This document shows, piece after piece, positions 7,708 to 24,092 of a stretch of 64,000 nucleotides of DNA (position 1 is its first letter; each line of letters opens with the position of its first letter). Origin of the DNA: Oxalobacteraceae bacterium OTU3CINTB1 (lineage in GTDB: Bacteria > Pseudomonadota > Gammaproteobacteria > Burkholderiales > Burkholderiaceae_D); contig CP099652.1 of assembly GCA_024123955.1 (NCBI GenBank), positions 5,022,001 through 5,086,000 on the forward strand. Direction: 5' to 3'. The notes under the pieces are model-generated. The model ran no database searches. It saw nothing but the letters and a program-made list of their open reading frames with translations, and was not told where the DNA came from. The position numbers and the translations under genes were made by a program.

Positions 7708-8703
7708 ATGCGCCTGAACTCATCTTTATTTTTGCTTTGCTTTTCAGCTTTAACGGCGTGCGGCGGCGGCGGCGGCGGCGGTAGCAACACCGCCGCATCG
7801 ACGCCTCAACCACCTGCCCCAACCGTACAATCCGGTAACATGATCTTCATCGGAGACAGGGGCAACCAGAAAATGGCTGCCATCGATACGCTGACGCCTG
7901 CGCCTGGCGCCTTGGCGGCGAAGGTATTTTCCACCAACGAAGCGTCCTGGTTCGATGCTGCGTTCGATAGCACTCGCAATGAACTTTATGTTGCTGCGTT
8001 CGACTACATCACCGTGTACGCCAATGCGAGCAAACTGGACGGGAATATTACCGCCTCCCGCACCATCACCCCGGCAATCAGTGGCTACAATAGTCTCAAG
8101 CGCGTGTTCCTTGACAAAGCCAATGACCGCCTCTACATCGGCTTCAAAGCACCGTTCAGTGGCGGCTTGGCCGTGTTTGAGCAGGCCAGCAAGCTCAACG
8201 GAACGGTGGCCCCTTCACGCATTATTTCGGGCAACATATCCATAGACAGTTGGACGCTGGACCTGAAGCGCAACCTGCTGTACACCAGCGCGACCGACAC
8301 CGCCGTGGCGGACGTGTATGTTTACGAGCACATCGACACCTTTAAGGGCGAGGCAACTTTCGCTCGCCGCATCAGCATGCCGAAGGTCGTAGAAAGGCTG
8401 TCCATCGACAGTAGCCGTGATCGGCTTTATATGGTCGCGGGCACGGGCGGCGCCATGATACTCGACGGTGCAAGCAAGGCGACCGGGACCTCTGCTGTCA
8501 CCACGCTCTCGCTACCGACCTCAAGCTACGCCAGCGCGGTGACAATCGATGCCGCAAATGACCGTTTTTACCTGGGCTTCAGCGCACAAGCCTTTGTCAT
8601 CAATGACGCAAGCAAACTGACCAACAGCAGCGGCGCGGCACAAGCGGTTGCCATCATGGGTCCGCCCAACACCACCATCTCCTATTTCGCCGTGGGCCAA
8701 TAG
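7708..8703 (+). CDS. putative beta-propeller lipoprotein
   Basis: A 331-residue lipoprotein: short signal peptide with lipobox LTAC (Cys18) and a Gly7 linker. The rest contains about five to six repeats of roughly 50 residues, each with the pattern D-x(3-4)-DRLY-x(8-12)-V-x(2-4)-ASKLxG (for example near residues 90, 134, 183, 233 and 280). Such repeats fold as a beta-propeller of the YncE/lactonase type. The protein could be a carbohydrate- or ligand-binding surface protein, but no catalytic motif is seen. The start has no recognisable Shine-Dalgarno sequence; the upstream 50 nt are very AT-rich and may carry the promoter. It is convergent with the pectate lyase gene. Confidence 0.75.
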   Translation: MRLNSSLFLLCFSALTACGGGGGGGSNTAASTPQPPAPTVQSGNMIFIGDRGNQKMAAIDTLTPAPGALAAKVFSTNEASWFDAAFDSTRNELYVAAFDYITVYANASKLDGNITASRTITPAISGYNSLKRVFLDKANDRLYIGFKAPFSGGLAVFEQASKLNGTVAPSRIISGNISIDSWTLDLKRNLLYTSATDTAVADVYVYEHIDTFKGEATFARRISMPKVVERLSIDSSRDRLYMVAGTGGAMILDGASKATGTSAVTTLSLPTSSYASAVTIDAANDRFYLGFSAQAFVINDASKLTNSSGAAQAVAIMGPPNTTISYFAVGQ

Positions 8704-22995: not shown

Positions 22996-23633
22996 AGCAT
23001 TCCCCCGGAATTGTTCGATAAGCTTTTCGCCTCGCGCCGGCGGCGCAGCGTGGAGATCCCCGTAATGCAAATCGTCAGCCACGCCGCGCTGCCCGCCATG
23101 CCGGCAAGCACGTCGCTCAGATAGTGTGCGCCGAGATAGACGCGACTGAAGGCCACCAACAGTATCATCACTGTACAGGCCGCGGCTGTGCCTAAACGCA
23201 CACTCCAGCCCTTGCGGGCGATCATCACATAGCACGCAACCAAGCCGTAGAACAGGGTCGCGGCCGACGCGTGCCCGCTGGGGAAGCTGTACGTCGCCAA
23301 TGTGACCAGGGGTTCCTCGAACACGGGACGGCTGCGCTGGAAGGTGACCTTGAGCAGCACGTTCAGCAGCATGCCGCAGGGTACGCTGAGCACCAGCGCC
23401 CAGATCCAATAAATCTGGCCCCGCTTCCACAAAAAGTAGCCGAACGCGGACGCCATCAGGATCACGCCCGGCATCGTGTGGACAGTCGTTATCGCCATCA
23501 TGATGCTGGTCATCGGCTCGAAATGGTTGGCGTTGAACCAGTTGGCGATGTGCAGGTCGAGGACGGTGATCTCTTCCTGCCCCATGACCTCGGACGCCAG
23601 GTGGCCGAAAATGGAGACGGCGAACACCATCAA
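22992..23633 (-). CDS. PAP2-family membrane phosphatase (N-terminus probably longer)
   Basis: A type 2 phosphatidic acid phosphatase. Conserved motifs are KVTFQRSRP (residues 95-103), PSGH (118-121) and SRVYLGAHYLSDV (163-175), among several membrane helices. Likely substrates are phosphatidate or undecaprenyl pyrophosphate. The listed start is a TTG directly before an ATG without a ribosome site. The frame stays open for 28 more codons upstream and encodes RLSPEGEFGLHLTVGVLL, which belongs to the conserved first helix of this family. The only start supported by a ribosome site (GGGAG, 6 nt) is ATT at 23717, giving 241 aa. First gene of an operon with the lipid kinase and metallophosphoesterase. 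Confidence 0.87.
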   Translation of the reverse strand: MMVFAVSIFGHLASEVMGQEEITVLDLHIANWFNANHFEPMTSIMMAITTVHTMPGVILMASAFGYFLWKRGQIYWIWALVLSVPCGMLLNVLLKVTFQRSRPVFEEPLVTLATYSFPSGHASAATLFYGLVACYVMIARKGWSVRLGTAAACTVMILLVAFSRVYLGAHYLSDVLAGMAGSAAWLTICITGISTLRRRREAKSLSNNSGGML

Positions 23634-23778
23634 AAGAACGCCAACGGTCAGGTGCAGGCCGAACTCGCCCTCTGGCGACAGTCTTGCCTCGATGAAACGC
23701 TTGGATTTGCTGAAAATTTGGTGCTCCCGGATAGGTGGCCGTTGAAGTTGGCGGAAAAACTACGAAACAACGAATTTA

Positions 23779-23813
23779 CTGTTTATTTACACAGTACCTG
23801 TTTATTCATACAG
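23779..23813. promoter_or_regulatory. two tandem LexA boxes
   Basis: CTGTTTATTTACACAG (23779-23794) and CTGTTTATTCATACAG (23798-23813) both fit the LexA consensus CTGT-N8-ACAG perfectly. They start 19 bp apart, on nearly the same helix face. They lie 55-89 nt upstream of the 74-aa gene, in an AT-rich promoter region that is also upstream of the divergent PAP2 operon. Confidence 0.88.
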
Positions 23814-23867
23814 TACTTATGCTATTCTGAACTCCTCGTTAAACGCTTCTCCCAAAAGGAAAATGTC

Positions 23868-24092
23868 ATGACAACAGTTAATAACAGCTTCAGCTCCCGC
23901 TTCGGCCTGGAATATATGCCTACTTCCTTCCTGGTCCGCATGGGCAAACGCGAATTGCTGGTTTGCCGTGATTTCCGTAAGCGCTACTACGCGGTCAATC
24001 CTGTCATCGAATGCGACACCGGCGTGCAAGCCGGTCACCTTGAGGTTCTGCTGTGCCGCCGCTGGCTGTTGATCCTGTCGAAGGCGCACTAA
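23868..24092 (+). CDS. SOS-regulated small hypothetical protein
   Basis: A 74-residue basic protein with no recognised domain. It contains the segment RMGKRELLVCRDFRKRYYAVNP and ends in the hydrophobic, arginine-flanked stretch LEVLLCRRWLLILSKAH, which could be a membrane-associating amphipathic helix. Three cysteines are present. AAGGAAAA lies 6 nt before the ATG. Two perfect LexA boxes immediately upstream indicate repression by LexA and induction by DNA damage. Small SOS proteins of this kind (SulA, SidA, YneA) often inhibit cell division, but no similarity to them is visible, so any such role is speculation. Monocistronic. Confidence 0.75.
   Translation: MTTVNNSFSSRFGLEYMPTSFLVRMGKRELLVCRDFRKRYYAVNPVIECDTGVQAGHLEVLLCRRWLLILSKAH

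Follow-up and report, generated by a model that had tools for sequence, protein, structure and literature searches.

DinI of Escherichia coli is a LexA-controlled protein that modulates RecA and adopts an alpha/beta fold. Cell division inhibitors of the SosA, YneA, and SidA type are membrane proteins, and those of Gram-positive bacteria are commonly encoded next to lexA (PMC6851548). Hypothetical genes with predicted LexA regulation, hypA and hypB, have been reported from Betaproteobacteria with multiple chromosomes (Burkholderiaceae/Comamonadaceae; PMC3323433), and the passage of PMC7739468 that names the Oxalobacteraceae concerns another regulator. This study concerns a gene encoding a 74-amino-acid (aa) protein in Oxalobacteraceae bacterium OTU3CINTB1, preceded by two LexA boxes. 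It lies in a window of 64,000 nucleotides (nt), which is the whole stretch of DNA analyzed and corresponds to positions 5,022,001-5,086,000 of a 6.87-Mb genome assembled as a single contig. On the basis of sequence comparisons, we consider the gene very likely to be under SOS (LexA) control and to represent a new, so far unnamed SOS gene family, part of the core SOS regulon in most of the Oxalobacteraceae sampled.

Both boxes match CTGT-N8-ACAG exactly and are located on the plus strand, the distal one (CTGTTTATTTACACAG) at 23779..23794 and the proximal one (CTGTTTATTCATACAG) at 23798..23813, the latter overlapping the inferred -35 region. They are followed by an extended -10 element (TG-C-TATTCT, 23820..23828, +), situated 6 nt past the proximal box, by a ribosome-binding site recognized by sequence reading (AAAAGGAAAA, 23854..23863, +), and by the predicted SOS-controlled open reading frame (ORF) of 74 codons (23868..24092 including the stop codon, +; ATG at 23868, TAA at 24090-24092). 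An earlier sequence-only reading of this DNA had described two such boxes and a 74-aa gene with its own ribosome site, and the arrangement is confirmed at these coordinates. As judged by eye, an AAGGA-like site precedes the ATG in many homologues too. The two boxes are 19 bp apart, start to start, and no other exact site occurs in the 64 kb. Shuffled versions of the window contained on average 0.43 exact sites, and two sites anywhere were reached in 8 of 100 shuffles; the pair is notable by its spacing and place, not by its number.

The decisive evidence for the predicted SOS-controlled gene, at the level of sequence, is the conservation of the boxes upstream of its homologues. From 125 homologue loci, 105 distinct upstream regions were retained after dropping duplicates by the last 120 nt. 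An exact box lies within 130 nt of the start codon in 101 of them and at -182 in one more (L148). Where the sequence-only reading had named homologues devoid of boxes as the adverse outcome, the opposite was found, with an exact box in 102/105 distinct regions. Among the rest, two (L125, L114) contain one-mismatch boxes only and one, a prophage-associated copy (L154), contains none. A compilation by eye over the 23 genera with the gene showed an exact box in one or more genomes of 22 genera and a one-mismatch box in the remaining genus, g14. When one mismatch was allowed, two boxes were found in 73/105 distinct regions; of 73 neighbouring pairs, 62 are spaced by 19 bp and 8 by 18 bp. Across all 125 loci, 194 exact boxes occur in 16,250 bp of upstream DNA compared with 7 in the remaining 584,303 bp, that is, 11.9 versus 0.012 per kb, an approximately 1000-fold difference that includes near-duplicate loci and refers to a background of unmatched composition. 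The eight middle bases of the box are variable, with three or four different bases found at each position.

The promoter is retained in a similarly regular position. The pattern TGnTAnnnT occurs 3-9 nt past the exact box in 98 of 101 distinct regions, in 95 at exactly 6 nt, against a rate of 2.1% in shuffled tails; it is absent after the box in L126, L128, and L141. With the extended -10 element 6 nt behind the box, the -35 region would fall inside the box, and LexA should therefore cover it. Location of the -35 region within the operator is the classical repression arrangement. A consensus promoter scan proposed another site, TTTACA-17-TACAGT from 23786. A composite pattern joining box and promoter (box-T..TT.TG.TA) matched 131 of 245 family genomes; a comparison of the lists by eye showed the gene in 130 of them. 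The reversed control matched once. No exact match was obtained in 37 of the 167 gene-bearing genomes, and for G014, G165, and G185, at least, the listed match and the gene are on different contigs; the pattern is a good but imperfect mark of the 74-aa gene. As for a non-homologous gene replacing it behind this pattern, the only matches were G105 among gene-less family genomes, with a GC-rich box, and, for other families of the order, G301 in a sample of 80 order genomes, and the ORFs downstream of both revealed nothing of interest by eye.

The motif itself has to be judged against its genomic background. The whole genome contains 26 exact CTGT-N8-ACAG sites and 18 sites of the reversed control pattern, so that one exact match by itself says little, a point that weighs against assigning the gene to the SOS regulon from the motif alone; several of the 26 sites lie inside genes or away from gene starts and look like chance occurrences. 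The meaningful subset comprises AT-rich sites beside gene starts. Such sites precede lexA, where two boxes lie 17 bp apart, and also recA, dinB (DNA polymerase IV), imuA, dnaE2 (error-prone polymerase), polB (DNA polymerase II), a repair-linked radical-SAM gene, a VRR-NUC gene of the FAN1 type, and two SRAP genes; the dnaE2 and polB ORFs are cut by the locus end. This list is a classical SOS set. Because the same motif precedes the organism's own lexA, recA, and other SOS genes, it can be regarded as the LexA box, as the sequence-only reading had proposed. Close box pairs among the 26 sites belong to lexA and the 74-aa gene only. LexA is encoded in this genome (TIGR00498 match), and a match to the LexA DNA-binding domain was obtained in 224 of 245 family genomes; three gene-bearing genomes without a LexA-domain match (G017, G044, G091) are fragmented assemblies (400-680 contigs) and constitute weak evidence either way. 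Another exact box, in a very AT-rich stretch (local GC content 0.30; L100, G000:C1:5109698), precedes by 33 nt a gene whose translation reads as UbiD-like and which is an unusual candidate for SOS control.

Of 245 genomes sampled from its own family, 167 encode the 74-aa protein; they represent 23 of 44 genera. The named loci belong to Duganella, Rugamonas, Pseudoduganella, Janthinobacterium, and Massilia, in addition to unnamed bins, and Noviherbaspirillum appears among the proteins; the named relatives carrying the gene are Oxalobacteraceae. Among the matches listed, the nearest named relative is Duganella sp. 1411, whose protein is 100% identical. The protein database searches listed the best 120 of 160, 617, and 334 proteins. 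Profile A1 matched 6 of 200 genomes of the order (a set whose full membership list is not given), five in the own family and one by a marginal partial match. The wider profile A2 matched 12 of 399 order genomes, 12/12 in the own family, and 2 of 274 class genomes, namely the own genome and one with a marginal partial match. Neither profile detected a clear relative outside the family in the sampled order and class genomes, for which the A2 searches scored at most 14 and at most 21 candidates per genome, respectively, so that very distant relatives could escape. Within these samples, the lineage specificity suggested earlier was borne out. Matches in two genomes outside the family (G433, G602) were treated as chance (E-value about 9e-4, partial, one with an internal stop).

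Usually one gene copy is present per genome. Genus g15 has two diverged copies in three of five genomes examined (G054, G112, G096), each with its own exact box (loci L151-L153 and L137-L139); as regards the other two genomes, G077 carries one boxed copy, and G014 one boxed copy together with the unboxed L154. A divergent 66-aa homologue without a LexA box is located in a prophage-like stretch of G014 (L206:7658-7855, -) that also contains a recombinase-like ORF and a gene for the anti-repressor Ant (phrog_130). An ORF at 7852-8088, upstream of this homologue and overlapping it, has a similar 'IRVGRLEF' stretch.

Low proportions of nonsynonymous (pN, 0.05-0.21) compared with synonymous (pS, 0.40-0.67) differences in 10 homologue pairs indicate that the 74-aa ORF is really coding and under purifying selection. 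Its product is a basic protein of about 8.6 kDa. Hydropathy and isoelectric points were calculated for 81 of 82 distinct proteins; the isoelectric point was below 7 in one of the 81, and no membrane segment was found in any of them, defined as a 19-residue Kyte-Doolittle window of at least 1.6 (highest value 1.39). The best conserved segment by column entropies is RDFRKRYYAVNP (residues 34-45). AlphaFold, supplied with 134 diverse sequences (divergent copy L154 excluded), yielded an all-beta model of moderate confidence, with a mean predicted local distance difference test (pLDDT) score of 75, in which the C-terminus forms a pair of beta strands. A first, helical model built from 27 close sequences (mean pLDDT 52) was discarded in favour of it. 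The small, basic nature of the protein noted earlier was thus upheld, and its hydrophobic, arginine-flanked C-terminus turned out to be a predicted beta-strand pair and, by hydropathy, not a membrane segment.

Searches of Pfam, NCBIfam, PHROG, and PDB gave no convincing family match. Weak PHROG matches were obtained at E-values up to 1, the best with phrog_4140 (E-value 0.0023, in 1 of 50 members). Structure searches against PDB and viral models returned nothing at an E-value of 0.001 or below; the best viral structural match, a model from Erwinia phage Rebecca (E-value 0.054, probability 0.99), appeared with other small phage proteins and was not interpreted. The window protein had no match in 50,697 phage records (E-value limit 1) or 72,556 plasmid records (E-value limit 0.01), and a scan of viral contigs with one peptide pattern gave no confirmed homologue. 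The sequence-only reading had recognized no known SOS effector in the protein, in agreement with these searches and with the lack of similarity to E. coli SulA, DinI, and RecX. Judged by titles and abstract starts, the open-licence papers listed by literature searches included none on the gene.

Except where stated otherwise, the neighbourhoods of 21 loci were inspected by eye. In the window, the 74-aa gene apparently stands alone, the next likely downstream gene being on the opposite strand and, by translation reading, encoding a LysR-type regulator. A PAP2/lipid kinase/phosphoesterase set is often the divergent neighbour in the Duganella-Massilia-Janthinobacterium group; the box stays with the 74-aa gene in other genera, where different neighbours are found. 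The PAP2 gene of the window codes away from the boxes and probably starts about 47 nt away from the distal one. At 23730-23732 (-) it has ATC where a relative (L036) has a probable ATG start, and the first in-frame ATG, GTG, or TTG is the TTG at 23633; the gene may use a rare start codon, or its start may have changed. In both gene-bearing genomes sampled from genus g13 (L130, L199), the homologue is divergent from dinB, with a LexA box between them. In L199, ada lies directly downstream, and dinB and ada were identified by family models; in L130, dinB and an ada-like gene located further downstream were both recognized by translation reading. The g13 locus is a small DNA-repair cluster. No division gene was seen among the neighbours in the 21 loci, which were read by eye and not scanned.

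Our leading suggestion for the function, which we hold tentatively and somewhat short of an even chance, is that the protein acts on DNA or nucleoprotein. In the absence of damage, LexA bound to the box (two boxes in the window) would cover the -35 region of the extended -10 promoter and keep the gene off; upon damage, RecA filaments would trigger LexA cleavage and the gene would presumably be switched on. The product would be a soluble, basic, mostly beta-sheet protein, the working surface of which is probably formed by the conserved RDFRKRYYxVNP segment and the C-terminal hairpin. It would most likely bind DNA or a DNA-bound partner, possibly the RecA filament or the replisome, and such binding would help or restrain repair or replication during damage. 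Three observations point to a soluble factor of this kind: the charge of the protein, its conserved Arg/Tyr segment, and, in one genus, the neighbouring dinB and ada genes.

The main rival is an SOS division inhibitor, that is, a protein which, like SulA, YneA, SidA, and SosA, blocks septation upon SOS induction by acting on FtsZ or a later division protein; we regard it as rather unlikely. Tandem close boxes over an extended -10 element suggest a product that is off in normal growth, and such a role is compatible with the result that PF03846 (SulA) was unmatched in 25/25 genomes of the own genus. PF03846 matched in 23 of 245 family genomes; the ORFs of the three scanned are ImuA and reach the SulA models only with scores under the cut-offs. 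SulA is poorly conserved outside Enterobacteriaceae, and unrelated proteins take its role elsewhere (PMC6851548). Against an inhibitor of this kind stand the lack of SulA similarity and of a transmembrane segment, the position of the gene far from lexA in this genome, and the neighbourhoods, in which no division gene was seen. PF03846 matches in genera without the 74-aa gene had at first resembled SulA, but a presumed mutual exclusion of SulA and the 74-aa gene was dropped, because the PF03846-matching ORFs were ImuA in 3/3 scanned of the 23 genomes. A broader proposal, which we consider about as improbable as the division inhibitor, is that the protein belongs to a new class of soluble beta-sheet SOS effectors serving as the Oxalobacteraceae damage checkpoint in place of SulA or the membrane inhibitors; it would act on the replisome, RecA filament, or divisome via the conserved Arg/Tyr loop, and one genus would have a second paralogue under SOS control. 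The probability left by the DNA-related role and the division inhibitor falls to other roles.

Among these is an SOS-induced toxic or growth-arrest protein, perhaps of mobile-element origin, which would accord with the tandem boxes, the divergent G014 homologue near the Ant gene and recombinase-like ORF, and the weak PHROG matches. Strong residue conservation and the usually single copy better fit a host function, however, and neither the phage and plasmid records, nor the viral contigs scanned with one pattern, nor the hydropathy profile, which lacks a hydrophobic helix, favour a toxin; we consider it decidedly improbable. The sequence-only reading had also raised the possibility that the boxes are shared with the divergent PAP2/lipid kinase operon. 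That they serve mainly this operon, with the 74-aa gene as a passenger, would suit the orientation of the PAP2 gene and the proximity of its probable start, but it is very hard to reconcile with the -10 element, which is oriented toward the 74-aa gene, or with the persistence of boxes and extended -10 element at the small gene beside other neighbours, including divergent dinB. Least credible of all, with a practically negligible probability, is that the boxes arose by chance or that the ORF is not expressed: the high background in the genome (26 exact boxes versus 18 in the reversed control) would allow it, but box, promoter spacing, and protein are conserved across the gene-bearing genera.

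Differences among bacteria in how they cease dividing, mutate, or survive after damage reside in lineage-specific SOS genes. The gene described here is unnamed and had no family model in the searches made, and yet a conserved LexA-type promoter accompanies it across most sampled genomes of this environmental family, whose members inhabit soil and water; it offers a test case for how an SOS response without a recognizable SulA controls the cell.

Compared with the systems described so far, the 74-aa gene resembles hypA and hypB in that these also encode lineage-specific hypothetical proteins with predicted LexA boxes; it is set apart from them by their stated distribution (PMC3323433), and the profiles detected no clear relative in other families of the order, although a distant link may exist. 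From RecX it differs in sequence (hhalign probability 0.1, no Pfam match to RecX). DinI (E. coli, 81 aa) is small and damage-inducible, as the 74-aa protein is predicted to be, but the two proteins show no sequence similarity (hhalign probability 0.2, no Pfam match to DinI). SulA of E. coli (PF03846) is LexA-controlled and cytosolic (PMC6851548), as the 74-aa protein is predicted to be, whereas its length (169 residues versus 74), the hhalign probability of 0.1, the absence of a Pfam match, and the predicted all-beta structure of the 74-aa protein separate the two. In contrast to SosA, YneA, and SidA, the 74-aa protein has no membrane segment and is not encoded near lexA; its likeness to them is that they too are small (SosA, 77 aa; PMC6851548), unrelated to SulA, and, as predicted for it, SOS-induced.
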